Of a stretch of 64,000 nucleotides of DNA, positions 1,465-37,303 are shown one piece after another. The DNA lies in contig JAJEKV010000011.1 of assembly GCA_021234155.1 (NCBI GenBank), forward strand, positions 8,729,132 through 8,793,131, in the 5' to 3' direction. The notes under the pieces are model-generated. The model searched no databases. It had not been told where the DNA came from and was given only the letters and a program-made list of their open reading frames with translations. Made by a program: the position numbers and the translations under genes. Position 1 is the first letter of the stretch. Every line of letters starts with the position of its first letter. The DNA comes from Isoetes taiwanensis. Its lineage: Eukaryota; Streptophyta; Lycopodiopsida; Isoetales; Isoetaceae.

Positions 1465-1975
1465 TGTGGGATAATTCGTAAGTATCGGATTTTGTTGTAA
1501 CGCCTGTGGGATATCTCAGAGCCACCGCAATCTAAACTTAGAACTTCTATCCTAACTAAACCGACGGAGTACAGCATAAATACGAATGATTTGTTGCTGA
1601 ACATGGAGCTCACTGCAGATCGTATGCATTGAATAAGTATTCGCGTTCAAAGGTTTGTGTTTGGAGCAGAAACGAGATTGCTACAGTGTTTAAGGCAATC
1701 TCATAGCTACAGTAAACCTGGAGCATTAATGACTATGATTATGTATTAAGGTTGAAATTGTTGATATATTGCAAGGGATTAGGGACCATATTGTGGCTCC
1801 CTTGCATTCATAGATTTCCTTAGGAAATTTGTGCTTTACTTCAATCAAGTACTTGTGGCATAGATCATAGATCATTTAAAGTTATTAATTGACTTAATTT
1901 CTCTAGTGTGCTTCAGGCAGTAAATTTGCAGTGTTTGCTCAAGTTGAAATATCTAGTTAACTTATACTTTCAACA
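1465..1975 (+). repeat. left LTR of the copia element (3' 511 bp only)
   Basis: It begins TGTGGGATAATTCG and ends TTTCAACA. It is nearly identical to 23563-24074, the last 512 bp of the right LTR. The right LTR actually starts at 19422 (TGTTAGAAAT), so this copy lacks its 5' part, displaced by the gypsy A insertion. Confidence 0.88.
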
Positions 1976-1989: not shown

Positions 1990-4273
1990 ATGTGGCATCT
2001 TGTAGATGGTAGTCAAGCTGGAGTGACTAGGTCTGCTAGTTCTGCAAGTCCAGGTACCAGCTCAAATAATCCAGGGGGAGGGAGTGGAACTCCAGAAGGT
2101 CCTAGAGCATCTTCAACTCCTGTTGTTGCTGTGGGAGATGACACTAAAATTATGGAAGCTCAGCAGATAATTCTGAGTAAGGTAGGAACTGCTCTTAAGT
2201 TGAGATTAAGAGGACTAAAGCCACATGAAATGTGGCAGTACCTTATAAGTCAATATGAGGTAAAGAGTTCATCCCAAATAGATTTGTTGGAAAAGCAACT
2301 AAGGAAACTAAAATTATTTGATAAGGATGATCTAACAGATTTTTTGGAGAAATTTGATTCTATTGTGGCAGATCTTGAAGGAGCTGGAAATGTTTTAAGT
2401 GATCAATACCAAATATTAGCACTGTCTAGGGCTGTCTCTCACAACACTCAGCTTGCAACATTAGTGAGAAATATAGCCACTTCAAAGGAGCATGCCTTGA
2501 GGATCATTCGTACTGAATTTGAGCAGTCCAGAGGTATTCAAGATGATGATCAATCTCCAGAGGTGCTGTTTGCAAGGAAGCAGAAAAGAGGAGGCAGTTC
2601 CAGCTTTGCAAAAGATAGATTGGGGCCCTGCTACACTTGCAATCAATATGGACACCTTAAAAATGAATGTCCAAGTGAAGGTAAGCAATTTAAATGCTTT
2701 AATTGTGATGGTAAAGGTCACATATCTGCAAATTGTCCAAGTCCCAAGGGTATTGGGGGAAAAGGGAGAGGTCGAGGTAGAACTCAAATGGACTCAAAAA
2801 GGGGAAGGGGGAGATTTAGAAGAAACACTAGTGTGAACATCATGGAAGAGGCAAATGAAGAAAATCCTGATGACATTGAGGTAATACATGCACTTAATGT
2901 TTCTCAAGAGTTTAATAAAAATGATAACAAGTTTCTCATTATAGATTCAGGAGTAGAAAGATCAGTAGTACATGATGTGAAGATATTAAAAGAATGTAAG
3001 AAAGAGAATGGTCAAGTTCAGCTTGGAGATGGTGGGGTGCAGAAAATTAGAGACTCTGGGATTTTGGAGTTGTTTGATTTAAATGGAAAAAGTGTGATAC
3101 TTAAAGAAGTTTTGTGTGTTCCAAATCTTGTGAGAAATTTAATCTCAGTTTGCCAACTTGTGGATCTTGGGTACAAAGTTGTTTTTGAAAAGCTTGAATG
3201 CAAAATATATCTTCATAACATTTTGAAGTTTATTGGAAGGAGAGTAGGAAATTTGTTTGGCTTTGACAAAGATCATATCTTGTCTATCAATCTTGTTGAA
3301 TGTCCATCAAAGACAACTTGGCACAATAGATTATGCCATACCCATTATGCCAACATTGATTTGCTTATCAAAAACAAGTTTATAACAGCAAAGGATGATG
3401 GAAAATTGCTATGTGCTGGCTGCCAACTTGGTAAGCAATCAAGACTTGCATTTAAAGCAAATGGTAAAAGGGCTAAAAGAATTTTAGATCTTATACACAC
3501 AGACCTATGTGGACCTATCAATGTCACAGGAATAGAAGGACATAGGTATTTTATGACCTTCATTGATGATTTCAGCAGAAGGACAAGATGTTATCTGCTG
3601 AAGAAAAAAAGTCAAGCTTTTGAAGCCTTGAAATTATTTATAGCTGAAGTAGAGTTAGAAACTGAAAGAAAAGTTAAATGTATAAGATCAGACAGGGGGG
3701 GAGAATATTTATCAAAGGAATTTAAGTGGTATTGTGCTAACCGTGGTATTAAAAGACAGTTGACTTGCAGATATTCTCCACAACAAAATGGAGTAGCTGA
3801 AAGAAAAAATAGGACTTTGCTCAATGCTGTTCGTTCAATGTTAAAATACTCTGGCTTACCAAATTTCTTATGGAGTGAAGCTTTGAAAGCAGCAGTACTT
3901 ATTCAAAACATATTGCCCTCTGTAAGTACAAAAGGTACAGTTCCTGAAATGATGTGGTCAGGTAAAATTCCTGCTTATGAACATTTAAGATCATTTGGTT
4001 GTTTAGGTTTTGTTCATACCCCTGAAGAAACTAGAAAAAAACTTGATGATCGAGCATGTATTGCATATATGGTGGGCTATGATTTGCATTCAAAAGCTTA
4101 CAGATTATATGATCCTGCTCATAGAAAAATTCTGATTAGCAGAGATGTAGTGTTCAATGAAAGCAAATTCTATCGAGCAATTCCTAATATTAATGATGAT
4201 AATAATTTGGAAGCTACTGATGTGAAAGAAACAGTTGAGCATACCGCTCGGACTGAGGTTGGAATGCAGGATA
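1990..4273 (+). pseudogene. copia Gag-protease-integrase, 5' half of an interrupted polyprotein
   Basis: An open frame of about 760 codons runs up to the gypsy B insertion. In order it shows a UBN2-type Gag helical region (about residues 60-190), two zinc knuckles (CYTCNQYGHLKNEC and CFNCDGKGHISANC), an aspartic protease motif (IIDSG, near residue 317), an integrase zinc region starting WHNRLCH, and the integrase core with HTDLCGPI, RSDRGGEY and SPQQNGVAERKN as the D-D-E residues. The usual N-terminal Gag segment (the FDG..W part) is not visible; a Ser/Gly-rich stretch takes its place. The frame continues in phase at 17499 once element B and one GGATA copy are ignored, so B alone inactivated this part. 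The ATG at 1990 abuts the primer-binding site. Confidence 0.9.
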
Positions 4274-5924
4274 TGTGACGGTCCAGGGGAATATACGCCA
4301 TAAATACGTATATTCCTGGATCCGTCACTATACAAGTCTATCTTCATAGTCTTGTATACCATAGGTTGTGGCACTAGGGGGCATGGCCAAGTTATCCTCA
4401 TAACTTAGCCAACCATGGGTTAGACCATTATCCACGTGGCCTCAACCCATTGGGGCACCCGCCACACAGGACTCACCCGATTGGTGCCACGTGGCATCCT
4501 AGGTGGACCTAGCTTATATAGGCCTAAACCCTAACCCTAGGCCTCTTTCCAGCCCTAGCACCCAGAGACTCACCTACTCGTTCGAAACCCCGTTTCGAAC
4601 ATCGTTTGTTGTGGCATAGGCTGGTGCAGCAGCCCCAGCAGGGTAGACTCGTTCTTGGAGTAGGAGCAGCATCTCGTGAGTCGAAGACCATGGAGGCACA
4701 CGGATCTGGAGGGAGAGCTTCAGGAGCAGGTATATAGGATAGTAGTTGTGATAGCTTATCTGGAATTAGCATTCCAGATATGCTAGTATCTTGTATCTAG
4801 AGTAGAGCCATCCTAGAACCCGTATTCAACATCTTGAACCCTAATCAATGAACCCTAACTATTAGTTAGATTTGTATGATTAGGTTAAGATGTTCTTCTT
4901 ATGATTATTCTCATGATGTGATGATTATGTGATGATGGTTGATCATGTTTGCTCCTCTTGTATTGGGAAGGGGGGTAGCGACCTAGAGCCATATGTAGTA
5001 TGCTCCTAGAGTAGATCCCTTAGTTCCTATTAGTTGCGGCCTGTGCATAGGAGCCCACCAGGCTATTGAGGCTATGATATGACTCAGCACCATACAACGG
5101 GGCTAGAGGGAAAGTGGAGGGAGGATCCCTGCCGAGTGGGGGCTTCGGGGGATCCCATAGTGGGCTAGGCTTATGGTCGGTCACTTCGTGTGGGCCGAGC
5201 ATGGGTCCGACACCTCCTGGGGCAATGGTGTCGCCCTGCCTCTCGAGAGCTGCAAGTGTCAGCTTGGCTCTCGTTTTGGGGGGTTCAGTCGGGTACGAAT
5301 CGTGTGTCGCCACGATTCTCTAGCCGCCCACGGCACCTCTCGATCCCAGGAAGGGGAGATGCAACCCTTCCTGCCTCATCGGACCAGGGAGATGCAACCT
5401 GGAGTAGTCCCGATGGGTGATGCCATGGGATTGCGTGATCCAGGAAGGCTAGAGTCCCGCTGTCGAGAGCCTGATCTAGCCCATTTGCAAAGTATGCAAT
5501 GGGAGGGGCGGATGGAGTGGTCAACCCTAGCCATTGTTCTATGCCGCCCTCGCCATTGCCATGACTCGGTCTGCTCTATCTTGAGGCCCTAGCCGTCCAG
5601 GTCATCCTCCCACAGTCCGAGCCGGGTAGGAGCTCTCATGTTTTATGGTTCGTGATTATCATCTTTGCATTGGTTTATGTGTGATGCACTACCCTTCGAG
5701 GTAGTATTTGTATATGTTGATGCTAGTTCTGACGTGTTGTCGCTTCCGCTGTTATAGGAGCCCATAGGGGAAGGGCGCGCAAGACACCTTCGTGTTCCCT
5801 TCCCGCACTAGGAGTCACCTCAGAGTGCGGGGTAGACGAAGGGCCCATGCGGTTGTTGAGCCGGATGGGGGATTTCCTGCCGAGTGTACGGCCGGGCGCC
5901 GTACGTTTAGCAGGGAGCGTCACA
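4274..5924 (+). repeat. 5' LTR of gypsy element B
   Basis: It begins TGTGACGGTCC and ends GGGAGCGTCACA, the usual TG...CA form. The first 55 bp form a long inverted repeat (4275-4328). It contains a TATA box and telobox at 4514-4538. Compared with the 3' LTR, the first and last 250 bp or so are nearly identical, while about 4560-5600 carries many 1-3 base indels. Confidence 0.93.
4514..4538 (+). promoter_or_regulatory. LTR core promoter: TATA box plus telobox
   Basis: TTATATA at 4514-4520 is followed at once by AAACCCTAACCCT (4526-4538), an extended plant telobox. The same arrangement is in the 3' LTR (TATA near 16094, telobox 16106-16118). Teloboxes are known from plant translation-machinery and histone-type promoters and as sites for telomere-repeat-binding proteins. 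Use as the LTR transcription start is inferred from position. Confidence 0.6.
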
Positions 5925-5925
5925 A

Positions 5926-5937
5926 TGGTATCAGAGC
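5926..5937 (+). promoter_or_regulatory. primer-binding site of gypsy element B
   Basis: TGGTATCAGAGC, complementary to initiator tRNA-Met, lies one base after the LTR end. Confidence 0.92.
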
Positions 5938-6498
5938 GATGTTCTTGGTTGACCAAGAACTAGCACTGACCATAACCATAAAGTAGTCTAACAGGCCTAT
6001 AGGGGTGTGAAATAAACATTTCCACCATCGAACCGCGAAAATGGGGGAAAAATTTTTCTCCTAGGTAGTGGGTCAGGACTTAGGTTAAGTGTTAGACGAA
6101 AGTTGAGTGAGTCAAACTCATCTTCTAATAAATTTGGAGTGAAAATTATGCATCTGCATCAAATTTCACCTAAAATGGGTCGAAGAATCATGCCAATCGG
6201 AGACCAGTGTGAAAAAATGGCTTAAATTCATAAATTGCACTTCGAACCATTAGAAAAATTCGAAAATTTAAGTATAATATCAATTAATATAGATTTAACA
6301 TATACATTAATAATTAAATAATGACTAAATATCTTGTAATTAATAAGGGGGGCTAATAAATAGGGGTAATTATGGTAGGAGAATATTCCCAGGGACCCTC
6401 CTTTTTAAATATCTGACACCTCATTTTCTCTCTCCAACCCTTCACCTTCACCTCTCTCTTGCTCAGCCTTTCGTCACCCATCTCCTAAACCGTAAGAC
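5938..6498 (+). other. untranslated leader of element B and putative H3-like promoter
   Basis: No coding signal is seen. The first part (to about 6350) is AT-rich. A TATA-like TTTAAATAT (6404-6412) lies about 90 bp upstream of the H3-like ATG and is followed by a CT-rich stretch (6425-6490) that looks like a plant 5' untranslated region. The captured gene may therefore have brought its own promoter. That is inference from layout only. Confidence 0.45.
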
Positions 6499-7595
6499 AT
6501 GGCTCGCACCAAACAAACCACCAAGAAGTACAACGAGTGCCCCACCCTCTCTATGGGCAGGCAGCAGCGCCGGTCGGCACGGAAGAAAGTTCCCCGAAAG
6601 CACCTTCGGCCGAAGCCCGAGGCAGGAGTCGCCCTCAAGCAAAGCAGCCAGCTGACGACCGAAGCCACGATGCCGCAGAGCAGCCCCAAAGAGCAGCAGC
6701 CCCTCGCCGGGCAGGAACACAAAGAACGGACGAAGTCGCTGCCACTTCGGGGCCACGTATTAACCGAGGTGGAACAAGAGGTGGAAGAGCAGCAACAAAG
6801 CCAGTGGAGGGAAGGGCCTTCAAAGGCTCAAAAAAGAAGGGAAAGGAAAAGTAGCAGAGTGGCCTGAGGAGAGGGCCGCTTAGGAAGAAAAGGAGAGAGA
6901 GGGAGCCGAGGAGCAAGAGCCGACGACGAAGAAGAGGAACCATGGCCCTCACGACCATCGCTATTGAGGAGCCTCGCCAGGAGGAAGAGGAGCAAACAGG
7001 CGGGATGGCGAGGAGGAGGAGGGGGCAGCAGACCGACGCTAGGCCACCCTACCCAAGTGGGCCGGAACCACCTAAGGTGGTGAAGAAGCAAAAGGTGGGG
7101 AGCGGCATTCAAGGCCCGCCAGGACCATGAAGTTTAAACGGAAGATGGTGGCATACAAGGAGTACCTTCGCCGCTGGACCAGGTACAATGAGTGGTATTG
7201 CCGCCAGAGGTGCAGCAAGGTCGGGAGGGCGGCAGGCCGGCCGAAGAAGAACCAGCCCAAGCCACCCCCACCTAGACCGAAAAACCCAAGAGGGTTCACC
7301 ACGGCCTAACAGCACATACGCCGGTGGTTTAGGGAGATTCGGCACTTCCGCATGTGCACGAATCTCCCCGATAAGGAAGGCTTCTTCCGAGCGCCTCCTT
7401 AGAGAGGTGTTGCAGCAGTTCCGGACCGATTATAGGGTTACCCCTCTAATGACCCGGGCCCTGCAAGAGGCTTCCGAAGCAGAGCTGGTCCAGCTCTTCG
7501 AGGAAGGGAACCTCTGCGCTATCCATGCTAAGAGAGTTACCCTTATGCCCAAGGATATTCACTTAGCACGGAGGATCCGCAGGGAGAGGCCCTAG
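6499..7595 (+). CDS. histone H3-like gene carried by element B (frame-disrupted as read)
   Basis: The product would be a core-histone-like protein. Seen: the first codons give [10 protein letters not shown], the H3 tail with K4 and K9 kept (A7T, R8K and S10Y relative to canonical H3), then a VPRKHL segment like the APRKQL of H3. A Lys/Arg/Glu-rich region of about 600 bp follows with no H3 counterpart. The histone fold then resumes: REIRHFRM (alpha-N, from 7331), [15 protein letters not shown] (alpha-1, from 7368) and a C-terminal part ending at the stop at 7593-7595, with [16 protein letters not shown] at the alpha-2/alpha-3 boundary. By hand alignment 37 of the last 45 residues equal canonical H3. 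Breaks: a TAA at 7307-7309, a frame change at the CCCC run near 7367, and frame changes in the linker, so introns, decay or base errors are possible. Canonical H3 has 136 codons; this span is about 1.1 kb. It looks like replication-type H3 rather than CENH3. Confidence 0.85.
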
Positions 7596-7836
7596 GCCTC
7601 AAATTTTGTAAATTTTGTAGAAGAATTAAAATTTTCATGTAACTATGTTTCTTATTAATATAAAAGTTATTTTTCTCTATAATTAGAAAAATGTTGTATG
7701 CTTGAAATGTAGGAATAGAACCCAATTGTGGTAGAATTCTTCATAGCATGTCTAGAAACACCCTAGAAATCATTACTACAACAAAATTTTGGCAAAAAAA
7801 AAAAAAAAAAAAATCATCAAAAATGCTGAAAATCGG

Positions 7837-8110
7837 GCCAACCGGGTGAGACCGCGCCTAGGGCCTCTGCGTTCCCGACGCAGGCGCATTTCGCGCGGAT
7901 TCACCCGACTGGGCCCAAAATCATGCTTTTAGATGTCAGTTTTGCTCAAAATAAGTTGCTAGTTAGGTTAGAATTGGCCCAATTAGCCATATTAGCATCT
8001 TCAAATTCCCTAAATTGACCAAAAATTGGCCCAAAACAGGCCAACCGGGTGAGACCGCGCCAAACGCGTCTGCGTCCGCGACGCGGAGGCCATCCGCGCG
8101 GATTCACCCG
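7837..8110. repeat. two copies of a GC-rich nested inverted repeat
   Basis: Copy 1 is 7837-7908 and copy 2 is 8039-8110. Each starts GGCCAACCGGGTGAGACCGC and ends GCGCGGATTCACCCG. The ends are inverted (CGGGTGAGACCGCGC against GCGCGGATTCACCCG, 13 of 15 pairing), and the centre of copy 1 has a second stem, CTGCGT/ACGCAG. The 130 bp between the copies is unrelated AT-rich DNA. Confidence 0.75.
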
Positions 8111-8292
8111 GGTCAGGCCATCTTTGAGCCAAATTAGCCAAATTTGATCCAACAAATTGCCATGTAGTGTTTCTTGCTTTGTTTTGCTTAGGTTTGCACT
8201 TCATGGTAGTTCAATTGGACACCCAGAGCCATAGAACCAAGGCCGTCTTAGGTAGGTACCTTTTTGCACGAACCCCGAGATCACCCCTAGTC

Positions 8293-8410: not shown

Positions 8411-9484
8411 ATGGCGCCCAGCAACTTTGAGAGGTGGTACAATGCTGCCAGCCACATCCATCAGCTTCCTGTAGATCAAGCCTTCTCTGTGTTTGATCAC
8501 TTGTTTGATCTTCATGCAACCTTGACTAGAACACCCTACTACACGGACATTATGTGCCAATATGACCAGCAGGTCCTGCCTTGGGAAGTTAGATTACCCC
8601 CTAGGGGAGGGAATTGGGTTTCTCTTGAGACACTTACCCAAGCTTTAGGTCGAGAGTTGGCAGGTTCCAAAGGCAAGAAGCAGCTATGGGATAGGACTAG
8701 GACCATGCCCGATTACATGACATGCAGACACAATAGGCATAGGTACCTTTCATCTCAGACAGCCCTTGCACTCTTCATGCACTATAAGTCAATCAATAAA
8801 GTAGGGGAACCCTCTGTTCAGCCCTTAGACTTAGCGCCACTTGATACCCGTAGGGCCCAGGATCAAATCCTGAATATAGAGTCCTCCGCCTACGAATACT
8901 ATGGCACGACGTCAGGGGCACCATCTCTACAGATCCATGAAGACTACGAGCAGCTAGGGGAGCAGAACCCAGAATGGGAGAGCAGGGAGGCAACAAGAAT
9001 GAAGAGGTACGCGTCAAGGCACGACGACGACATGAGAACAGCAACCGACCCACCAGTCGGCATCACAGCTTTGTCGCCGATAGTCATCGACGGGGAGGAG
9101 TACATTTTTGCAAATGACATCCTCAACTTGTCCTATTGTCAGGAACAGGGTCTCCGAATCGACGAGCTCTTGGGCATGATAGCACACGGGAGCACAGACC
9201 TCATCGACTACTCATACCAGGAGATTCCAAGGGAGCTGGTGGAGAGACACTCTTATGCTAGGGAGACAATGTCGGATATAGCAGCTTACCAGCAGATAAG
9301 GGAGATCTATCGACAGCAGGAACCTATCATCTCAGAGGAGGAGTTCCAGCAGATACAGAGCACACTCTACAAACCAGGGAAGGGCCCAAGCTCAAGCCGA
9401 CCCGATTCGAGCAGGGAGCATGAGGGGAAGGGTCCAAAGAAGCATCAACTTGGACAACGCAACCAGCATGTGGAGGGATCATGA
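8411..9484 (+). CDS. unknown accessory ORF of element B, first part (357 codons)
   Basis: The protein starts MAPSNFERWYNAASHIH. I recognise no family. It is acidic to neutral, with no zinc knuckle, protease motif, signal peptide or membrane segment. The N-terminal half is rich in aromatic residues and looks globular; the C-terminal third is charged, with a helical Glu/Gln-rich stretch (IISEEEFQQIQ), then a Ser/Lys-rich tail. It overlaps the next frame by 65 bp, so the two may be one gene split by a frame change. It lies between the H3-like gene and gag, where Tat/Ogre elements also carry an extra ORF, but I see no specific similarity to those. A TATA box at 8293 suggests separate expression. 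Confidence 0.65.
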   Translation: MAPSNFERWYNAASHIHQLPVDQAFSVFDHLFDLHATLTRTPYYTDIMCQYDQQVLPWEVRLPPRGGNWVSLETLTQALGRELAGSKGKKQLWDRTRTMPDYMTCRHNRHRYLSSQTALALFMHYKSINKVGEPSVQPLDLAPLDTRRAQDQILNIESSAYEYYGTTSGAPSLQIHEDYEQLGEQNPEWESREATRMKRYASRHDDDMRTATDPPVGITALSPIVIDGEEYIFANDILNLSYCQEQGLRIDELLGMIAHGSTDLIDYSYQEIPRELVERHSYARETMSDIAAYQQIREIYRQQEPIISEEEFQQIQSTLYKPGKGPSSSRPDSSREHEGKGPKKHQLGQRNQHVEGS

Positions 9485-9941: not shown

Positions 9942-10259
9942 ATAGTTGTAAAATTTTCTTAAGTTTTGTGCTAAATGTTTCTTGTACCCATTGTGCTAAG
10001 ATATATCTACCTTATCATGTAATCCTATGTATTAATGACTATTAACTGTTTTGCAAATGTAAGGCTTTGTATGATTTCTTATAACTAAAGATAATTCAAT
10101 TGCAAGTAAGATTGATCAACATGTAACCCAAATAAAATGTATTGATGATCAAACCTTGCAGCAAGGAACTCAAGTGCAGGATCTCAAGACCAGCACCGAC
10201 CACGCAATTGGGTACCAAGGAACTTGTTTGGCAGAGAACAAGAAGATTTTGAGCAGGAT

Positions 10260-13052
10260 ATGTCACCAGAGGTAATCAACGCAAGGCTGGTGCAGATGAG
10301 GAACCAGATGCAGAACCTCATCAACTGGGCGGCACCACTGATGAATGAGCAGGAGGATGGACCCCTACCTCCACCTCCACCTTGTTTTCCGGGTGGTGAC
10401 GAAGTCCCTCAGCAGGAAGGGGAGGGCAACCAGGGGAACGCGTACGTCAGGGATAGAAGAAGGAAGAGGAGAACTAAGAGTCCATCGTCATCTAGCTCCA
10501 GCTCATCAGACAGTTCTTCCAGTGAGGACAGCTCTAGCTCCGACAGTCAGTCTGGCACACCTAAGGCAAGAAAAAGGGCAAGAAAGACAGATGACTATCA
10601 GAAAAAGGTGGATAGTGCTATGAGCAATGTGTGGAAGACAAGGAAGCTGGGCCAGTTTTCAGGGAAAGACAGGTCAGGCATGGAGGCTGAAGCATGGCTT
10701 GATGAAATGGAAGAATTTGGCAACTCCTACGGTATGAAAGACAAGGACATAGGGAAAGTTGCTACAGCTAACCTTATTGGACCGGCAAGGATCTGGTGGA
10801 AGGGATATGCTAAGTCTAACAAGCTGAAGAGGAACAATTGCAGGTTTAAGACCTTCAGCAAGGCTTTTCGCAAGCACTATGTACCAAGGTCTCATACTAG
10901 TAGACAGATCCAGCAGTTTTACAGGTTGAATCAGGGTAGCTTATCAGTGGCTAAGTATACCGAAGAATTTATGAGGCTTAGGCTCCATGTTCCTGGAGTC
11001 TCAGAGAGGCAAGCAGTGGATACTTATATTGAGGGGTTGAACAGCAATATCAAGAGGCTTGTTAGAGCAATCAACCCAAGGTCAGTTGCAGAGGCCGAAG
11101 ATAAAGCTATAAGTTTGGAAGAGGCACCAGCAACTCCAGCAGAGAAGCAGTCAACCTTCAGGGGTAAGAGTTCAGGGCAGTATCAAGGACAATATCAGGG
11201 TAAGCAATCAGCAGCTACACCATCAGGGAGTCAGCAGCAAGGTAAGGGTCAGAACAAAGCTTTTGGGGACCGTAAGCCACAGAATGCATCAGGGGGCAGT
11301 GCTCTTAAGCGTCTCCTAGACAGTTTGCCGAAGGAAAAGAGACAGGAATGCATTGAGAAAAAGTTATGCTTCAGGTGCTTCCAGCCAGGGCACCGAACAC
11401 ATGATTGTCCATTCGTCATGCAGTCAGCCTTGGCAGAACTCTTGGATTGGGACTCCCCAACAGAAGCGGACGAGGACGACGACCAGCAGGAGGGCCAGGA
11501 CTTCATAGATGGTGAGTGCCACATATGTGCAAACATTGAGACAGGTGATATAGAGAATCAGTCGACTGTCATCGCGGCGGATGGGATCATAGATAGTAAT
11601 CCTTATGTAGTCCTCATAGATACAGGTAGCTCTCATAATTTTGCATCTCCTAGATTGGCTGCTCTAATGAAGAACAAGGTATTGAAGTCTAAGCCAAGGC
11701 CAGTAGCTATGGCAAACGGCGCCATTCGGCACACTAAGGGGAGGAGGATCACCTTTGACATAGACCTTAGTGGGGCTAAGTGGCCGATGGGAGCAGAAGT
11801 CATGGACATCGGAAGATATGATCTGATAGTGGGGATGGAATTTTTGAAGCCAGCCAAAGCCATGATTGATTGCGACCGGAATGAAGTCACCATGACGGCA
11901 CCAGATGGCAGCAAATTGATAGTGAAAGGTAAGAAGCTAGATTCTCCCATGCAGTGTATTTCTTTGAAGCAGCTAAGGAAGAGTATAGAAAAGAATAAGG
12001 TGGACTACATCTTGAGGATGGAATCAGTTGAGCCAGGCAAGCAGGAGGGAAGTGACCCAAAGGGGAATCAGTTGCCCAGGCAGATAGCAAGGCTTATTTC
12101 AGAGTTCAAGGATGTATTTCCGGATGAAATCCGGCAGCTGCCACCTTATAGGGGTGTGGAATGTGAGATCACATTGGCTCCGGATGCGAAGCCTACCAGT
12201 AAGGCGCCATATAGAATGAGCACCCCAGAATTGATTGAGCTCAAGAAGCAGCTTCAGGAATTGCTCGAGCTTGGATTTATAAGAGCAAGTGTGTCTCCTT
12301 TCGGGGCACCTATACTCTTTGTGAAGAAGAAAGATGGGAGTTTAAGAATGTGCATAGACTATCTCCAGCTTAATAAGCAGACGATTAAGAACAAGTATGC
12401 ATTGCCAAGGGCAGATGACCTAATGGATCAGCTACAAGGAGCAAAGGTATTCTCTAAAATTGATTTGAGGTCAGGATACCATCAGATAAGAATAAAAGAA
12501 GAGGATATCCATAAGACCGCTTTCAGAACGCGGTATGGTCACTTTGAGTTTACAGTAATGCCCTTTGGACTATCGAATGCTCCAGCAACGTTTATGCGCC
12601 TCATGAACGACATCTTCAGAGACTTCTTGGATGAGTTTGTTATTGTCTTCTTCGACGATATTCTAGTCTACAGCAAGTCCCTTGAAGAGCATTGTCAGCA
12701 TCTCAGGAAAGTGTTGGAAAAGTTGAGACGTCATCGGTTGTATGGGAAGCTCTCTAAGTGCCACTTTGCAACAGGCCGAGTGGAATATTTGGGGCATGTA
12801 GTAACATCCGAGGGAATCTCCACAGATCCATCTAAGATTGAGGCAATAGTTGATTGGCCAGCTCCAAGGAATGTGGCAGAAGTAAGAAGCTTTCTCGGGT
12901 TGGCGGGATATTACAGAAAGTTCGTGAAGGACTTTGCTAAGTGGGCGTCCCCTCTGTCGGACCTCACTAAGGCCAAGAAGATTAAGGATTGGACTAGCCA
13001 TTGGTTAGAGAAAGTCCAAGCTTCTTTTGAGAAGCTTAAAGAGGCCTTTTAA
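10260..13052 (+). CDS. gypsy Gag-protease-reverse transcriptase of element B
   Basis: One long frame is open from 10149; the first ATG is at 10260. Order: a Pro-rich N-terminus, a basic and Ser-rich tract (about residues 70-105), a Retrotrans_gag domain ([24 protein letters not shown]), a CCHC zinc knuckle ([14 protein letters not shown], coded near 11367-11408), an aspartic protease ([11 protein letters not shown] near 11609), and an RT with [18 protein letters not shown], the catalytic FFDDILVYS near 12648 and [15 protein letters not shown]. One RT motif is altered (DYLQLNKQ where DYRQLNK is usual). The frame stops at 13050-13052, at the RT/RNase H border, after a likely small indel. It makes the particle and copies RNA to DNA in the cytoplasm. 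Confidence 0.92.
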
Positions 13053-13880
13053 CAATGAGCACCGGTGCTTGTTCTCCGGATCCGAAAGTAAAGATAAGTT
13101 GGTAGCAACAGATGCAAGCAAGATAGCAACGAGGCGGTCTTGATGCAAGAAGGAAGGGTAGTCGCCCACATTTCGAAGAAGATGAACGACGCCGAAGCAA
13201 CGCTACCCAACCCATGATCAGGGAGCCGCTAGCCATTGTCGGGGCATTGAGGATATGGAGGCATTATCTGGCCGGGAAGGAAGTTTCAGTTGGATACCGA
13301 TCACCGAGCCTTCAAGATATCTTTTCACCCAGCCACTCCTCAACTTAAGGCAAAGGAGGTGGATGGAATTCCTTGAGGAGTATGATTTTGATATTATATA
13401 TAAGCCCGGCAAGCTTAATGTTGTAGCAGATGCCCTCTCCAGGAGACCATTTCAGACAAGGACGCATTGTAATGCGATTTCCACTCTTTCGAGTGAGTTT
13501 GGCAAGAAGATTGAGGAGTCCTTACCAACAGATGTGGACTTCAAGGAGGTATGGGAAAGTATTTCCAAGGAAGCCAGAACAGATAAGGAGCGGGAAGCCT
13601 TCAAGCATTATAAGAAGGAAGGCAACCTGTTGTATCACAAGCATAAGTTGTGTGTGCCCGAATCATCAGGGGTAAGGAAGTTAATTCTTCATGACACACA
13701 TAACAGCCCAATAGCAGGGCATGCTGGCTTCATGAAGACCTATTTCAAGATTCGAAGTAGCTACTTCTGGCCAGGAATGAAGAGGCAGATAGCTGCATAT
13801 ATTCGGGATTGCCCGGTTATGTCGGCCAGAGACCAAAGCATGAGCAACTTCGATTCCGTGTGCTTTAGAGCCATTGGGGG
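13053..13880 (+). pseudogene. RNase H and integrase zinc-domain remnant of element B
   Basis: Pieces of RNase H are readable in changing frames: an ATDASK catalytic-Asp segment near 13110, VLMQEGRVVAHISKKMN near 13135-13185, then YDFDIIYKPGKLNVVADALS (13381-13440). The integrase H2C2 region follows (HDTHNSPIAGHAG, YFWPGMKRQ, DCPV). The second Cys of the usual CPVC pair is lost at a frame change near 13820. At least two indels are needed to keep the family alignment. The two Cys-side defects may be sequence error or decay. Confidence 0.85.
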
Positions 13881-14404
13881 TGCCAAATGCAAAGTGGGAG
13901 GTCATAAGCATGGATTTCATCACAGGTCTCCCTAGAACTCTTCGAGGCAAGGATGCATTGATGGTTGTCGTAGATAAGTTATCTAAGATGGCACATTTTG
14001 TGCCTTGCAAGACTACTGACACCGCATTAGATACTGCCAAGTTATTTGTAAGGGAGATTTTTAGACTCCATGGCATGCCGCGGGAGATAATATCTGATAG
14101 AGATTCTAAGTTTATGAGTGCCTTTTGGCAAGATCTCTTCAGCACCATTCAGACGAAGCTCTCTATGAGCACGGCATATCATCCCCAAACAAATGGCCAG
14201 ACGGAAAGGACGAATCGGATCATTGAAGACATGCTTCGAAGCTATGTGTGGAACAAGCAGTCCAAGTGGGATGAGTACATCCACTTGGTGGAATTCGCCT
14301 ACAACAGTGCCAAGCAGGAGTCATCTCAGATGTCTCCTTTCATGGTAAATTATGGCTACCAGTGCTTAACCCGGATACCTGGCACAATCCTGTGTCCAAG
14401 GTAG
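13874..14404 (+). pseudogene. integrase catalytic core of element B
   Basis: The D-D-E core is complete: SMDFITGLP with the first Asp, IISDRDSKF with the second, and TAYHPQTNGQTERTNR with the Glu. The text continues through VEFAYNSAKQESSQMSPF to VNYGY, then shifts frame around 14362-14375, where the next frame takes over. It cuts and joins the cDNA to host chromatin. It overlaps the following frame by 43 bp because of that one indel. Confidence 0.88.
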
Positions 14405-15000
14405 AAGTGTCCCAGCAGATGTTAGGGGATATGCAGCAGCTAGTGGAAGAAGTAAGGGGTTACTTATTGGCAGCAAGAAGTCGGCAGAAGAGTGTAGCCG
14501 ACAAGCACAGAACCGTAAGGGAGTTCAAGGTAGGCGATAGCGTCTGGTTGAAGATCAAGGTGAAGCAAGCCAAGCTGCGAATTGGGATTTGCAAGAAGCT
14601 TGCCCCTAGGTGGGCTGGTCCCTTCAAGATTTTGGAGAGAGTGGGCTCTCAAGCCTACAAGTTGGATCTTCCCGCCCATCTCAAGGTGCACAAGGTCTTC
14701 CACGTAAGTTTATTAAAAAGGCACAATCCTAACCCTGAGGAGGTTTTGGATACTCCAACTTTGTTGGAAATGACGGAAGAGCAAGTAGAAATAGTGCCTG
14801 AATTACTTCTTGATAAGTCATTCAAGAAGACTAGGAGGTCTCAGTTCCTCCAATATTTGGTTAAGTGGAAGCACTTACCCGTGGAAGACGCGACATGGGT
14901 ATTAAAGCAAGATTTGGAGAAGCAATACCCAGAGTTTATGAAGGAGTTTGATGGGCGAGTCGTCTCCGACTTGGTCGACCCCGACTTGCCAGGTGGTTAG
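14362..15000 (+). pseudogene. integrase C-terminus with chromodomain of element B
   Basis: After the C-terminal integrase barrel (VREFKVGDSVWLKIK, KLAPRWAGPFKILERVGSQA, HKVFHVSLLKRH) comes a chromodomain of about 50 residues (LLDKSFKKTRRSQFLQYLVK, then WKHLPVEDATW and DLEKQYPEF). Of the three aromatic cage positions used by HP1, only the Trp of LVKWK is plainly kept, as in the group II chromodomains of plant chromoviruses, so direct binding of methyl-lysine is doubtful. In the family this tail steers integration to heterochromatin. It is notable beside an H3-like cargo. Confidence 0.9.
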
Positions 15001-15853: not shown

Positions 15854-17493
15854 TGTGACGGTCCAGGGGAATATACGCCATAAATACGTATATTCCTGGA
15901 TCCGTCACTATACAAGTCTATCTTCATAGTCTTGTATACCATAGGTTGTGGCACTAGGGGGCATGGCCAAGTTATCCTCATAACTTAGCCAACCATGGGT
16001 TAGACCATTATCCACGTGGCCTCAACCCATTGGGGCACCTGCCACATAGGACTCACCCGATTGGTGCCACGTGGCATCCTAGGTGGACCTAGCTTATATA
16101 GGCCTAAACCCTAACCCTAGGCCTCTTTCCAGCCCTAGCACCCGAGAGACTCACCTACTGCTCGAAACCCCGTTTCAACATCGCTTGTTGTGGCATAGGC
16201 TGGTGCAAAGCAGCAGCCAGGTAGACTCGTTCTTGGAGTAGGAGCAAAGATCTCGTGAGTCAAGACCATGGAGGCACACCGGATCCGGAGGGAGAGCTTC
16301 AGAGCAGTGTATATAGAATAGTAGTTGTGATAGCTTATCCGGAATTAGCATTCCGGATATGCTAGTATCTTGTATCTAGAGTAGAGCCATCCTAGAACTC
16401 AGATTCAACATCTTGAACCCTAATCAATGAACCCTAACTATTAGTTAGATTTGTATGATTAGGTTAAGATGTTCTTCTTATGAATTATTCTCATGATGTG
16501 ATGATTATGTGATGATGGTTGATCATGTTTGCTCCTCTTGTATTGGGAAGGGGGTAGAGACCCAGAGCCATATGTAGTATGCCCTAGAGTAGATCCCTTA
16601 GTTCCTATTAGTTGCCTCAGTGCATAGGAGCCCACAAAGGCTATTGAGGCTATGATATGACTCAGCACCATACAACGGGCTAGAGGGAAAGTGGAGGGAG
16701 GATCCCCGCCGAAAGTGGGGGCCGGGGGATCCCATAGTGGGCTAGGCTTATGGTCGGTCACTTCTGTGGGCCGGCATGGGTCCCGACACCTCCCCGGGCA
16801 ATGGTGTCGCCTCGCCTCCCTCGAGAGCCGCAAGTGTCAGCTTGGCTCGTTTTGGGGGTTCAATCGGGTGCACTAATCGTGTGTCGCCACGATTCTCTAG
16901 CCGCCCACGCACCTCTAGATCCCGGAAGGGGAGATGCAACCCTTCCCGCCTCATCGGACCAGGGAGATGCAACACGGAGTAGTCCCGATGGGTGATGCCA
17001 TGGGATTGCGTATCCGGAAGGCTAGAGTCCTGTCAGAGCCTGATCTAGCCCATTTGCAAAGTATGCACAGGAGGGGCGGATGGAGTGGTCAACCCTAGCC
17101 ATTGTTCTATGCCAGCCCTCGCCATTGCCATGACTCGGTCTGCTCTATCTTGAGGCCTAGCCGGTCATCCATCCTCCCACGAAGTCCGAGCGGGGTAGGA
17201 GCTCTCATGTTTTATGGTTCGTGATTATCATCTTTGCATTGGTTTATGTGTGATGCACTACCCTTCGAGGTAGTATTTGTATATATTGATGCTAGTTCTG
17301 ACGTGTTGTCGCTTCCGCTGTTATAGGAGCCCATAGGGGAAGGGCGCGCAAGACACCTTCGTGTTCCCTTCCCGCACTAGGAGTCACCTCAGAGTGCGGG
17401 GTAGACGAAGGGCCCATGCGGTTGTTGAGCCGGATGGGGGATTTCCTGCCGAGTGTACGGCCGGGCGCCGTACGTTTAGCAGGGAGCGTCACA
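15854..17493 (+). repeat. 3' LTR of gypsy element B
   Basis: TGTGACGG...GCGTCACA, 1640 bp, paired with 4274-5924 (1651 bp). The target duplication GGATA follows at 17494. The mid-LTR differs from its partner by many short indels, mostly in GC-rich runs. Confidence 0.93.
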
Positions 17494-18346
17494 GGATACA
17501 AGAGGAATTCTTGACAGTGATAATGAAGATGGAGATGAAGGTACAAGTGAACCACAAGATGCTGAGAGTTTATCAGAGTTTGAACCTGCAGTTGAACCTG
17601 CATTACCTGAGGAAGAGATAGCAGAACCTGAACATGCTGACCCTGCTGTAACAATGGCAGAACCTGAACCTGCTATACCCATGACAAGACCAAAAAGAAA
17701 AGCCAGGAGGACTGAAGCACAAATCTTGGCAGATGAAAGTAAACTTCAACTAGAGTTGCATGGGAGAACTGAAGAAGGTAGAAGTAAAAGGCATCAGGGC
17801 AGCAAAGGTGAAATCCATTCTATATTTGATATTCTTATCTTAGAAACTGATAAGCTACCTAGTAATTTTGAAGATGCTATTAAAGGTAGTGATTCAGAAA
17901 ATTGGAGGAAAGCTATGGAGAATGAGATGCAATCTTTCAAAAGAACAGAGACCTATACAGTAGTTGACAAGCCACCAGGTAAAAATGTTGTTGGCAATAA
18001 ATGGATCTTCAGAATAAAACCAGGTATTGATGGAAAATCAAAGAAATTTAAGGCAAGGCTTGTGGCACAAGGTTTTACTCAGAAGAAAGGATTAGATTTC
18101 GATGAAACATTCTCGCCATTGGTCAAAATTAATAGTTTGAGAATGCTATTAGCTATTGCAAACTCATATGACATGGAAATTCATCATATGGATGTAAGTA
18201 CAGCGTTTCTTAATGCAAAACTTGAAGAAGAAATCTATTTGAAACCTGCTCCAGGATTTGAGGAAGAAAAAGGGAAAGTGTGGAAATTGAACAGGGCAGT
18301 TTATGGATTGAAACAAGCACCAAGGGTGGTACAAATGTATGGATAA
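17494..18346 (+). pseudogene. copia polyprotein: linker and N-terminal reverse transcriptase
   Basis: This is the direct continuation of the frame cut at 4273. It has an acidic Glu/Pro linker, then the copia RT start (ENEMQSFKRTETYTVVDKPP, NKWIFRIKPG, KARLVAQGFTQKKGLDFDET), the first catalytic Asp block (HHMDVSTAFLNAKLEEEIYL) and VYGLKQAPR. The frame is then lost at about 18325-18346, in the spot where families read QAPRAWY, by a small indel. Confidence 0.9.
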
Positions 18347-19427
18347 TTATCTTCTAGCAAGGCTTTGAAAAATTAAAATGTGATGGAAACTTGTACAGGT
18401 ATAATGATGGGAAGCAGTGGTGCATTATAGCTCTCTATGTTGATGACAATATCATGGTTGCAAATGACAAATATGTCTTGGCTCAATGCAAACATCTGCT
18501 CAATAAACGTTTCCAAATGACAGATTTAGGTGAACTAAAAAGGTTTCTTGGGATTGAAGTATACAGGGACAGAGAAAATAAACTGCTGACATTGAGCCAG
18601 CAAACTCATATTTTGAATATGTTGAAGAAATTTAATATGAGTGATTGCAACATAGCACAAACTCCTTTAGTACCAGGGCAGAAGATCTCAGCTAATGTGT
18701 CTCCAAATTCAGAGAAAGAGAGAAAGCAAATGGAGAATGTTCCTTATAGATCACTGATTGGCTGTTTGTCTTATGTAGCAAATTGCACAAGACCAGATAT
18801 AGCTTTTGGAGTAAACTTATTGAGCAGGTACAACAATAACCCTGGTTTAGAACATTGGACAGCTGCCAAAAGAATCCTGAGATATTTGAAGGGTACCTTA
18901 GATATTGGCATTAGGTATAACTCAGATGAGCTTAAATTAAAGGCCTATTGTGACTGACACAAGGTGTGACCTAGACCAAAGGAAATCAACATCAGGTTAT
19001 GTGGTTTTGCTAGGAGGTGCCCCTGTAGCATGGAAGTGCAAAAAGCAAGGAAGTATAGCCCTATATAGTGCAGAAGCTGAGTATAATGCTGCAACTTTGC
19101 TTACTAAAGAAGTGGTATGGGAAAGAAGACTACTTGCTGAGCTAGGGCTAGAGCAAACGTAACCTACAATAATCTTCTCGCGGATAGCACAAGCCGCATA
19201 ACCATGTCCGAAAACTCGTGTTGCATGAAAGATGCAAACATATAGAAATGGAAGTCCATTTTATACGAGATATGGTTGAAAGAAAACAGGTACACCTTGC
19301 ATATGTCAGTACAGTAAATCAAATGGCAGATCTTCTAACAAAAGCTTTACCATTTGGAAGATTTAAAATTCTGAGAGATGCTGTACAGTATAATCACAGG
19401 AAAGATTACATGAAGGGGGAATGTTAG
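18347..19427 (+). pseudogene. copia reverse transcriptase C-terminus and RNase H
   Basis: RT continues with ALYVDDNIMVA (the catalytic YVDD), TDLGELKRFLGIEV, SLIGCLSYVANCTRPDIAF and RILRYLKGTLDIGI. RNase H starts at KAYCD (near 18940) and breaks there at a TGA/indel, then resumes with STSGYVVLLGGAPVAWKCKK and YSAEAEYNAA. A further break near 19160 precedes the terminal CKHIEMEVHFIRDM and MADLLTKALP. At least three indels are present, so this copia is dead apart from the gypsy insertion. Confidence 0.88.
19412..19421 (+). promoter_or_regulatory. polypurine tract of the copia element
   Basis: GAAGGGGGAA lies directly before the right LTR start TGTTAGAAAT at 19422. It fixes the LTR border. Confidence 0.8.
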
Positions 19428-23473: not shown

Positions 23474-24074
23474 TAATGAGAAGCACTTAAGATTGAAAGG
23501 GAGTTTTTTTAAAAGGGGTTTAAAGGTTCAATGGTCGTAAGTCGAAATTATCTGTGCACGTATGTGGGATAATTCGTAAGTATCGGATTTTGCTAATAAC
23601 GCCTGTGGGATATCTCAGAGCCACCGCAATCTAAACTTAGAACTTCTATCCTAACTAAACCGACGGAGTACAGCATAAATACGAATGATTTGTTGCTGAA
23701 CGTGGAGCTCACTGCAGATCGTATGCATTGAATAAGTATTCGCGTTCAAAGGTTTGTGTTTGGAGCAGAAACGAGATTGCTACAGTGTTTAAGGCAATCT
23801 CATAGCTACAGTAAACCTGGAGCATTAATGACTATGATTATGTATTAAGGTTGAAATTGTTGATATATTGCAAGGGATTAGGGACCATATTGTGGCTCCC
23901 TTGCATTCATAGATTTCCTTAGGAAATTTGTGCTTTACTTCAACCAAGTACTTGTGGCATAGATCATAGATCATTTAAAGTTATTAATTGACTTAATTTC
24001 TCTAGTGTGCTTCAGGCAGTAAATTTGCAGTGTTTGCTCAAGTTGAAATATCTAGTTAACTTATACTTTCAACA

Positions 24075-28239: not shown

Positions 28240-30840
28240 CCTCTTCAACCCATTGCTATCCAGGCTCCTGCCCCTCGCATTCGCTTGACTTATTCTAGAT
28301 CTTTTGAATATGAACAGACATTAGCTCCTGCGCTTGCAGGTATTTTGGATTACCCAACTCTTCAAGGGCGTAATGCAGCATTTGCTGATGCTTTGCTTAC
28401 TTCTGCTGTCTCTTGCTTTGGTACATGCACTTCTCTAGGAAATCCTTTCCTAGAAATGCCTGGTTTGATGAAGACTGCAAGCAGCTTAAAAAACAATTGC
28501 GAATGATAGTTGAGCCAGATATGCGACATGCTCAGCAACAAAGCGTGCCTTCTTGCGTTTCAAAACAGACTTATAATTCTGAATGGCATTCATCAGAAGC
28601 AAATGTTTGAATTACTGCTACGTGAGCCTCGGACCTTCTGGGCAAAATATTATATCGACCACCTCCTACTCTTGGACATATTTCTATGCAGCAATGGGAT
28701 GAGCGATTGGTCCATTTATATGATCATCCTGGGGTCCTTAATTTTGTGCCTCCTTTTGTAGGTGATATTCTTCAATTCACAGAGGAAGAAGTCAAAGAAG
28801 GACTGCGACATCTATCTAATGGCAAGTCTCCTGATCTTCAAGGTTTGCAAGCAGAATTGCTTAAATGGGGGGTCCGCTATTGCTTCCAATCATCACTACT
28901 CTTTTAAATCAAGCTTTGCAAGAAGGCTTGCCAGAAACTTGGGCTGTCAGTAAGGTTGTACCAATTTACAAAGCAGGTAATAAGCATGATCCTTCTAATT
29001 ATCGCATGATCATGGTAAGTTCCATATTTTCAAAGCTCTTAGCCGCGCACTTTATTGGCTCCCGAAACCGAGTTCTGATGGGTTCGCTTGGGCGAACCCG
29101 GTGGATGATGCCACGTCGAAAATGCACCCGCAACGCTCTCGCCACGTCAGGGGTGCGGGTTCACCTGGGCGAATCCCGCGGGTTCGCCTAGGCGAATTCT
29201 TGGGGTTCGCTTGGGCGAACCCCGTTGGACGCCCAAGTTCGTTTCGGGAGCCATTTGAAGCACCGCCGTTGGACGCCCAAGTTCGTTTCGGGAGCCATTT
29301 GAAGCACCGGCTCTTAGCCAGTCTTACTGAGAAGCAGTTGACATCATGGGCAGAACATACTGGTGTACGTGTTGTAGGACATGCAGGCTTTCGTCCATGC
29401 CATTCTACAATAGACCATATTTTCACATTGCGCATGCTTATTGAACATAGTCGAAGTCTGAAACAAGACCTCTATATATGCTTTGTGGATTTTACTTCTG
29501 CTTTTGATACGATTACGCGAGCTTCTTTGGCGGCTTGCGGGCGCAGGGTTCCACAAGATCTTCAAAATGCGGTTTATCGGCTCTATGAAAGGGTTTTTGC
29601 TAAATTTCCAAAGATCAAGTACTCAAATCACTAGCAATATTGGAGTTCGTCGGGGTTGCCCTTTATCTCCTACACTCTTTGGCTTGTACATTGATCAATT
29701 GGAAGAATGGCTTGATAATCATGGTGGAGGTCCACATTTGGCACACTATATCATTAGGCAACTTATGTATCTGATGATGTTTCACTTCCGGCACATACCG
29801 CATTTGCTAGTATGCGGCAACATTTACATGCTCGCTGACACGCTTTTTGTGAGAACAGGGTTTGCGTGTTAATCTCCAAAAGACCAAGCTTTTGGTAGTT
29901 CAATCTTCGTCACAATGTTCCCCCCATGCACTATGATAGCCATGAAGTTGAAGTTGCGGATAGCTACAAGTATTTTGGTGTAGAATTGCAGTAAGAACAC
30001 ACTTTGGGAACAAAGTGTATTACCAAGCCGGTGGCTATTTGGATGGAGAGCACTCTATGCAATGCAAAACAATTGTTTTCGCCACAGAAATTCATGATTG
30101 GCCATGGAAAGCCCACTTGTTTGGCCTTTGGTAGAGCCCTGCTTTTCTTTGTATGGTTACGAAGTGTGGGGGCACGCCATTAGTGCTAGTGCTTGGGAGA
30201 GCTTAGAGCGAGTGCAAAAAGTCCTTTCTCACTTACGGTCTCGGAGTTAAAACAACGGTGCCCTATGCTATTCTTTTACAAGAGGCGGTTTTTGGCCTCT
30301 TCAACATTACGGCATGAAGCGCCATCTCCACTATATCGCAAGGTGCACCACATGGATGATGTTAGGTATCCGTTCTTGCACTTGCCATGATGAATCTCCT
30401 CGGTGTTTGAAACGATGTTGGAAAGAGCATTGCACTACATGGTTTGCCCGTTGGTCGCGGCAACGAACAATCGCCTGATGCTTACCGGTTGATCTGAGCT
30501 TTTGCAACAATATCTCAATGGTTGTTTTTCTCAAAAGATATGGGACCGATTACTTTGGCCCAAGTGGCGGTCATTATCATGCACACATAAATCCCACCTT
30601 GGCACGGGGCCCCAAGCTTATTTGCTTGCTTCATTGTCAGGAACAAGCTTGTAGCTATTGCATCAATTCGCACGCGGGGTCCCACAGTCTACTGGATTGA
30701 GAGGCGGTAGATGGGAGCGAATTGCCAATTGCAGAAGAAGCGAGACTATGTTACTGTTGCCGATTCACAGGTTATTGAAGATGAAAGCCATACTCTTCTC
30801 GAGTTGCCCCGCTTTTGAGATAGTCAGGAATCATTTTTGA
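28240..30840 (+). pseudogene. LINE reverse transcriptase, broken
   Basis: Pieces in order: PRNAWFDEDCK (28450), LYDHPGVLNFVPPFVGDILQ (28700), EGLRHLSNGKSPD, LPETWAVSKVVPIYKAGN (28930), then the MITE, then LTEKQLTSWAEHTGVRVVGH (29325), LYICFVDFTSAFDTI (catalytic Asp block), NIGVRRGCPLSPTLFGLYID (29637), and a damaged ADD box near 29770. Beyond 29880 only short matches remain. Many indels, no working enzyme. Confidence 0.8.
29045..29309. mobile_element. Mutator-type MITE inside the LINE RT
   Basis: A 265-bp insert flanked by a perfect 10-bp duplication GCTCTTAGCC (29035-29044 and 29310-29319). The ends are inverted: TTGGCTCCCGAAAC at the left and GTTTCGGGAGCCATTTG at the right. The last 44 bp are present twice in tandem (29222-29265 and 29266-29309). 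The middle holds several GGTTCGC(T)TGGGCGAACC palindromes. The 9-10 bp duplication points to the MULE group. Confidence 0.75.
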
Positions 30841-36255: not shown

Positions 36256-36939
36256 CTAACTTGTTTCTTCTGATAAATCTACAGGCACACGACTCGTTTT
36301 CCTCTTCTTCTTGGATGCAGTTACTTTACCCTCTTCTATAACACGAGCCTCAGCCGAATCTTCAGCAATAAGATCATGACTTCTTGAAACCTTCTTATGT
36401 ATCAAAGGGGAGCCCTTTAAAACTTCAACTATAGCATGGCCATGAGAAACTGTTGCAGTTTCAGCAGGAGAATAAGAGGGCGATTCTTCGTGATTTTCTA
36501 CACATATCCGACTTCGCACAAATGAATCATATTTTGACCTGTTATTCTTATACATTTCAGCAAGTTCAGGATCCAAAGGACTATCCAGGTTGGGATCTTT
36601 AAGAAGGCTACAAACTTCTTTCAACATCATCCTTACAGTATACATAGGACTCCATTTCTCACTAAACAGAGGACCAAGACACATTTGTCCAGTACTGTTA
36701 TCAATATTTGGATGGGGGATCTTACTTCTGAACACTAATTTTGGGGGCTTGAAAGGGTATTGAGAAGGAAATGCTAAGCTGACCTTGATAATCGACCAGG
36801 CATAGGCGCTGAGTGGGGGACCTTTGATTTCTAAGTTCCAGTTGAACAAATCATCATCGACGAAAGTGGGGATGCTAGCAAGCTCCTCCGGTGGCAAATC
36901 GGTTAACTCCTTAAGCTCTTTCGCAAGTCTGGCGGCCAT
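36256..36939 (-). CDS. ubiquitin-conjugating enzyme E2 with C-terminal extension
   Basis: A single-exon frame of 227 codons from the ATG at 36939, chosen because the UBC fold starts MAARLAKELKEL and the context (CAGCTATGGCCGCC) is favourable; an upstream in-frame ATG at 37077 would add 46 residues with no domain. The UBC domain spans residues 2-150: GPPLSAY, YPFKPPKLVF, the HPN motif at 76-78, the likely thioester Cys87 (GQMCLG), then KWSP and LLKDPNLDSPLDPELAEMY. One residue more than usual separates HPN from the Cys. Residues 154-227 are a charged tail with KKKRK, a possible nuclear signal. It accepts ubiquitin or a related modifier from E1 and passes it on with an E3. The subfamily is not clear. 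Lack of introns may mean a retrogene. Confidence 0.85.
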   Translation of the reverse strand: MAARLAKELKELTDLPPEELASIPTFVDDDLFNWNLEIKGPPLSAYAWSIIKVSLAFPSQYPFKPPKLVFRSKIPHPNIDNSTGQMCLGPLFSEKWSPMYTVRMMLKEVCSLLKDPNLDSPLDPELAEMYKNNRSKYDSFVRSRICVENHEESPSYSPAETATVSHGHAIVEVLKGSPLIHKKVSRSHDLIAEDSAEARVIEEGKVTASKKKRKTSRVPVDLSEETS

Positions 36940-37303
36940 AGCTGCCGAGCGCCTCCAGTTGAGTTGTTTATGCGTGTGTGGCAATAGATGGGCGGCTATA
37001 CCCCTTACCACTTGTCTTTCTCCTTCACGACGTGTAAAGGCAAATACTAAAGTTACACTGCAAAACTTACACCACATTTTTGCCTTTTTCCCAAATGCAA
37101 TTTGCTGCCATATAGTTTGCCCAATCTGTTTGGTATTGGGGAAGGGTATTCTAGAAGTGGTTAGGACTAAGATTTCGATATGGTATCGTATGAAAAAGGG
37201 TATATTTAGCCAATTTTGAGGAGCTTAATTGGCTTAAGGAATGAATCTCTAATTTTGGCTAGTTGTCGACCATGGGTGTCCGAAATTGGGCTGTGCATAG
37301 GTT

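Follow-up and report, generated by a model that had tools for sequence, protein, structure and literature searches.

A histone H3-like gene in the leader region of a chromodomain Ty3-gypsy retrotransposon of Isoetes taiwanensis

The retrotransposon and its surroundings

The DNA analysed here, a stretch of 64,000 nucleotides from Isoetes taiwanensis contig JAJEKV010000011.1 (referred to as the window), contains a Ty3-gypsy retrotransposon with two long terminal repeats (LTRs) flanked by a GGATA target-site duplication (Table 1). The boundaries of the element are clean, a purine tract precedes the 3′ LTR, and the primer binding site, TGGTATCAGAGC, is presumably of the initiator-Met tRNA type, judging by its motif. 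An H3-like gene lies between the primer binding site and gag; the original prediction had put it in this place of an element bounded in this way, and its coordinates are right.

Table 1. Positions of the features in the window.
Feature	Position	Strand	Remarks
Ty1-copia 5′ LTR	1465-1975		
Target-site duplication GGATA, left	4269..4273	.	within the Ty1-copia reading frame
5′ LTR	4274..5924	+	1651 bp, TGTGACG...GCGTCACA
Primer binding site TGGTATCAGAGC	5926..5937	+	directly 3′ of the 5′ LTR
H3-like gene, whole	6499..7595	+	leader region, between primer binding site and gag
MARTKQT start and long basic tail, frame 1	6499..6867	+	122 codons, then stop
Middle	6868..7330	+	open by way of frames 3 and 2; the frame-2 path contains an in-frame TAA (7307)
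H3-like block REIRHF......L, frame 2	7331..7366	+	12 residues, after the TAA at 7307; H3 spacing before the fold
Complete H3-type histone fold (alpha1-L1-alpha2-L2-alpha3) and stop, frame 3	7371..7595	+	one open frame; coding 7371-7592
Stable stem-loop, upstream member of a diverged tandem pair	7836..7914	+	-48.5 kcal/mol, z -4.3
Stable stem-loop, second of the pair	8039..8118	+	-55.1 kcal/mol, z -6.5
Second extra reading frame, 357 aa	8411..9484	+	between the H3-like gene and gag
Overlapping open frame, 213 aa	9300-9941	+	may continue the 8411..9484 frame
gag-protease-reverse transcriptase	10149..13052	+	single frame, 967 open codons (Pfam)
RNase H-integrase	13053..14997	+	assigned by alignment to P0121; patchy breaks in the frame
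Chromodomain, integrase C terminus	14797..14952	+	PF00385, 1.8e-11
3′ LTR	15854..17493	+	1640 bp
Target-site duplication GGATA, right	17494..17498	.	
Ty1-copia LTR	23563-24074		

The order of the domains is gag, protease and reverse transcriptase, as recognized by Pfam, followed by RNase H and integrase, which is the order of Ty3. The last two were assigned by alignment to P0121, a 1602-residue polyprotein whose precomputed Pfam list includes both. Out of 7999 candidates scored, P0121 is the nearest among the 120 matches listed (64% identity over the 818 residues searched); tblastn with this protein gave 56.5% identity over the part from gag to RNase H and 69-81% over the later pieces. The named entries among the listed polyprotein matches belong to streptophytes, e.g., Solanum, Tanacetum, Closterium and Chara, and include PITA names that we take to be loblolly pine. 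By its LTRs, domain order and chromodomain, the element is a chromodomain Ty3-gypsy element (chromovirus) of the plant type. Its coding part is open from gag to reverse transcriptase, and the RNase H-integrase part downstream of position 13052 is damaged in patches.

The element interrupts, at position 4273, the reading frame of a Ty1-copia element recognized by its copia-type gag (Pfam). The copia frame contains no disruptions before the insertion and three in the interval 17489-19000, and no target-site duplication was seen around the copia element. The LTRs of the inner element differ by 86 substitutions in 1630 positions versus 5 in 512 for the LTRs of the enclosing copia element (Fisher p 3.6e-6). 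Nesting should forbid the inner LTRs to be the more diverged, so either the assembly or the history of this locus is odd, and the use of LTR divergence as a clock was rejected because the enclosing LTRs have far fewer differences. Columns in which the inner LTRs differ are clustered (variance/mean 4.6), and the merged events are not (0.99); an assembly error behind the LTR differences is possible. At positions 1453-1464, the copia 5′ LTR abuts GGGAGCGTCACA, with which the LTR of the inner element ends. Incomplete stretches related to this LTR lie at two places in the window, about 484-1112 (484-598 and 783-1112) and about 50576-51172, and neither has an H3-like sequence nearby.

The H3-like gene and the rest of the leader

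The histone fold encoded in frame 3 was matched by the Pfam Histone family at 1.8e-21 and by H3 chains of the PDB at 5.6e-24. When the window was searched by tblastn with a provisional H3 sequence, a single place, 7371-7589, was retrieved at an E-value threshold of 0.01, with 65.8% identity over 73 residues and an E-value of 1.3e-26. At the level of sequence comparison, these matches establish that segment 7371-7592 is homologous to the H3 histone fold, which agrees with the original prediction. The latter had also counted 37 of the last 45 residues as equal to canonical H3; we obtained 36 of 45 with the H3 used here (eight differences within residues 91-134 plus the final residue) and 37 of 45 with an H3 that has Ser96, presumably as in H3.3.

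Over the whole fold, 48 of 73 residues are identical to H3; among the 25 changed sites, 15 carry substitutions with negative BLOSUM62 scores. Segment 86-90 is altered and reads PLMTR. Residues R63, R69, R83, C110, H113 and D123, which we take to be contacts to DNA or to the partner H3, are kept. AlphaFold2, run on the fold with 18 relatives, predicted helices at 6-16, 25-44, 48-53 and 60-69 (mean pLDDT 70, pTM 0.43). A Foldseek search with the predicted fold retrieved H3 chains (best E-value 8.6e-5) at a TM-score of about 0.5 and an rmsd near 11, perhaps because a lone H3 has no packing partner.

The motifs IRHF and TNL in front of the fold resemble those of plant CENH3, and a CENH3 origin was considered. 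A CENH3 has a longer loop 1 with RW, and the Arabidopsis and rice proteins (provisional sequences) need insertions in loop 1 when aligned with H3, but the window protein aligns with H3 without gaps over 73 residues and has RV, not RW. In a tree of the fold, in which 29 of 45 inner branches are open, the H3-like protein does not join the two provisional CENH3 sequences. With loop 1 of H3 length and no grouping with CENH3 in the tree, the CENH3 origin was rejected as unsupported.

Upstream of the fold, the resemblance to H3 is confined to short stretches. The hexapeptide ARTKQT occurs once in the six reading frames of the window, and the chance of finding it right after the ATG at 6499 is 6e-7, given the composition of the tail; for these first residues, the claim that an H3 tail is encoded from this position is borne out. 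Directly after it, TKKY is read where H3 has ARKS (residues 7-10). Lys and Arg abound in the frame-1 tail. An unconstrained local alignment between the H3 tail and frame 1 was equalled by 63 of 2000 shuffles, which is weak, and that of a second tail block by 263 of 2000, which is not significant; the openness of the 122-codon frame, matched by 69 of 2000 dinucleotide shuffles, is likewise weak on its own. In the REIRHF......L block, 6 of 12 residues are identical to H3, with a probability of about 1e-4 at that exact place, the place having been chosen post hoc. As a free local alignment, the same block is not significant (733 of 2000 shuffles; score 36 versus a shuffle maximum of 39). The middle part gave no match beyond shuffles in the 120 listed protein matches.

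The tail is in frame 1, the REIRHF......L block in frame 2 and the fold in frame 3, and there is no continuous H3-like reading frame: the path of H3 homology requires three frame changes and passes one stop. The fold itself is free of stops. A minimum of two disruptions is needed to read the whole gene versus a shuffle mean of 6.2, with two or fewer reached in 5 of 1000 shuffles. For the tail and middle without the fold, two disruptions compare with a shuffle mean of 4.2 and were reached by 106 of 2000 shuffles, and the antisense strand needs only three. Since tail and fold are in different frames, this copy, as assembled, cannot make the whole protein; the H3-like gene and RNase H-integrase in this copy are damaged or mis-assembled. 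Of the near-complete H3 gene that had been proposed, the start of the tail and the whole fold are thus present, but they lie in different frames and are joined by a middle that is unlike H3.

The third-position GC content of the H3-like gene (0.66-0.70) contrasts with that of gag-pol (0.51), as would be expected of a captured gene; the value for the second extra reading frame is 0.58. An A20 tract is located 3′ of the H3-like gene, at 7794-7813. The gene was considered as an A-tailed retrocopy, and this candidate was rejected when no exact flanking repeat of at least 8 bases was found, the test being limited to exact matches of that length: 5925-6499 contains none for the stretch that begins at 7811-7830, at the end of the A20 tract. 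As far as this exact-repeat test reaches, nothing points to the segment having been inserted separately with a duplication of its own, a possibility that the original prediction had raised.

The two stem-loops of the tandem pair, 83% identical over 72 bases, follow the H3-like gene and precede the 8411..9484 reading frame. The 357-residue product of that frame had no Pfam match reaching the cut-off and no homologue at an E-value of 0.001 in a search of 5.8 billion proteins (2623 candidates). An AlphaFold2 model of this product, made without an alignment, had a pLDDT of 34.5 and is meaningless.

Related proteins and precedents

Proteins similar to the whole H3-like product were searched with length limits of 0.55-1.75 times 365 residues, which deliberately left out ordinary H3s; of 202 candidates, 134 fell within these limits, and 120 of them were listed. 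The sequences discussed below were read in part. P0010, P0014, P0015, P0022, P0023, P0027 and many of P0038-P0120 have, like the window gene, a long N-terminal extension before the H3 fold. P0014, P0023 and P0027 (364-425 aa) have the same layout: in these proteins TKQTARK opens the tail, and a long insert separates it from the H3 fold. IRHFQ is common to the window gene and P0010, P0014, P0015 and P0027. Unlike these features, the middle of the window gene has no significant similarity to the long H3-fold proteins; kinship with them in this part was rejected, the Smith-Waterman scores being no better than those of shuffles. One named land-plant entry, a Juncus protein of 208 aa, was noticed among the 120 H3-like matches listed. 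Four scans with short peptide patterns revealed no relatives in viral contigs, and none were found in phage records.

Many of P0038-P0120 are proteins of approximately 280-320 aa that combine an H3 fold with a longer loop 1 and have an N-terminal part in common, LTKRQKDIFIQYGF...GWDQVDINNYVL (as judged from the part of the sequences that was read). This large group resembles a repetitive H3 family that might be mobile.

The original prediction had stated that no established case of a near-complete core histone in such a position was known. No LTR element carrying a histone gene was found among the literature matches listed (a full-text search, with subscription papers and bioRxiv outside its scope), but the statement has to be narrowed, H3-like genes in mobile elements being already in print for fungal hAT DNA transposons (PMC3538342, PMC6710886).

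In Pyrenophora tritici-repentis, a hAT DNA transposon carries an H3-like ORF, H3L, for which transcripts (ESTs) are reported; in the reference, H3L genes number 26 and closely resemble one another (PMC3538342). As in the window, a diverged H3-like gene is accompanied there by the genes of the element itself and by an ORF to which no function is assigned. The Pyrenophora element is, however, a fungal DNA transposon with terminal inverted repeats, whereas here the carrier is a plant-type LTR element, seen in one copy and with a much longer protein. In Pseudocercospora fijiensis, histone H3 was captured and amplified by a hAT transposon, and a similar event is described in five further genomes (PMC6710886). 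This, too, is capture of H3 by a transposable element, but the carrier is a DNA transposon, and in P. fijiensis RIP inactivated all of the hundreds of copies but the original one.

Host sequences inside LTR elements are documented in plants (PMC13317346, PMC3726574), and, according to the accessible text of the review (PMC13317346), they are often gene fragments. The word "histone" occurs zero times in the main texts of these two sources, as far as they are accessible, and zero times in PMC6338049 and PMC8775202.

Origin and possible role of the H3-like protein

That a chromodomain Ty3-gypsy element captured an H3 gene is fairly well supported, for the one copy examined. The LTRs, the target-site duplication, the primer binding site and the purine tract bracket the H3-like gene, which counts in favour of a gene borne by the element. 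The role of the protein is a matter of conjecture.

Whether the fold changed at random was judged in two ways. Where the Arabidopsis and rice CENH3 both keep the H3 residue, 5 of 35 sites are changed, and elsewhere 20 of 38 (Fisher p 5e-4; p 0.0075 if one CENH3 suffices); the two CENH3 sequences are provisional, and the test is free of word-sharing bias. The changed sites also fall in variable columns of an alignment of 44 non-redundant relatives (mean entropy 1.32 versus 0.60, p 3e-4), which had been retrieved through words shared with the window protein. After masking of the shared five-residue words, 55 columns remained, and the difference was not significant (1.23 versus 1.00, p 0.17). The pattern of change, as read from these alignments, suggests that the protein was once under selection, though the tests do not all agree. 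The signal could wholly predate the capture; we infer that selection acted after it, in the element. The original prediction that the element gained an H3 gene finds support for this copy in the internal position, in the exact-repeat test, which gave no hint of a separate insertion, and in the pattern of change, although the masked entropy test is not significant. The uses that it proposed for the protein, in chromatin on the element's DNA, in the loading of particles or in evasion of silencing, are candidate roles.

A possible, if rather doubtful, account is that a divergent host H3 variant was transduced once, by template switching or read-through, has had no part in transposition and is decaying, the signs of selection dating from its life as a host gene. 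The frame damage in the H3-like gene, its base composition unlike that of gag-pol and the single copy seen agree with such a passenger, as does the frequency with which LTR elements of plants capture host genes (672 in rice and 1,343 in sorghum, as reported in the accessible part of PMC3726574). The damage, however, does not single out the H3-like gene, since RNase H-integrase is damaged too. A further, weak objection is that the 120 matches listed include no named H3 of a plant with a tail of comparable length, proteins shorter than 0.55 or longer than 1.75 times 365 residues having been excluded.

The single copy would also fit a segment that is foreign to the element family, through separate insertion of an H3 gene into one copy or mis-assembly. 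So would the divergence of the LTRs: an alignment of the inner pair shows differences, in short patches, at 117 of its 1661 columns, against 5 of 512 for the enclosing copia pair. We consider a foreign segment quite unlikely: the element boundaries are clean, no flanking duplication was detected (exact, at least 8 bases, one side tested) and the long new middle is unlike a fresh H3 retrocopy. It also seems rather unlikely that the product is a particle protein, with no role in silencing, whose basic tail and fold bind the RNA or cDNA of the element or aid entry of the pre-integration complex into chromatin. The Lys/Arg-rich tail would suit such a function in an element that already has a chromodomain integrase, and the H3-like gene, which precedes the other long frames noted downstream of the 5′ LTR, might be the first to be translated from a full-length RNA, but the conserved H3-specific residues of the fold exceed what nucleic-acid binding needs.

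The explanation that we favour, and hold tentatively, is that a plant chromovirus captured a host H3 gene and maintained it for its protein product, which may be a modified histone that serves the chromatin of the element itself. A plant-type Ty3-gypsy element would have taken up the host gene into its leader, between the primer site and gag; the gene would then have persisted as a protein, gaining the long new middle while retaining the exact tail start and the whole fold. In its most likely role, the H3-like protein would pair with host H4 and enter nucleosomes on or near the element's DNA. K9 methyltransferases require the ARKS context, and H3 residues 87-90 guide chaperones. Given TKKY in place of ARKS, the altered segment 86-90 and the kept contact residues, it is a fair guess from the residues alone that the protein is a nucleosome-competent histone that takes K9 marks poorly. 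With ARTKQT (K4 and its readers) kept, TKKY around K9 and 86-90 altered, nucleosomes containing it may resist K9 methylation, and silencing would be weakened.

Carried to its end, this line leads to a chromovirus that encodes an H3 variant with the K4 side of the tail, unable to take K9 methylation, which would mark new copies as open; we find such a counter-silencing histone quite improbable. Silencing of retrotransposons in plants rests on H3 marks, and, if true, an element that supplies an H3 changed at the K9 site would offer a direct test case for answers to chromatin silencing. Retrotransposons would, moreover, join the few kinds of mobile element in which a core histone gene has been described.

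Elsewhere in the window, scanned as a whole with Rfam without a match, an open frame on the minus strand (36256-37224) reads, by eye, like a ubiquitin-conjugating enzyme. The region at about 29101-29270 contains a 95-base fold that ranks among the most stable on the plus strand of the window, and its translation, again by eye, repeats GFAWANP.
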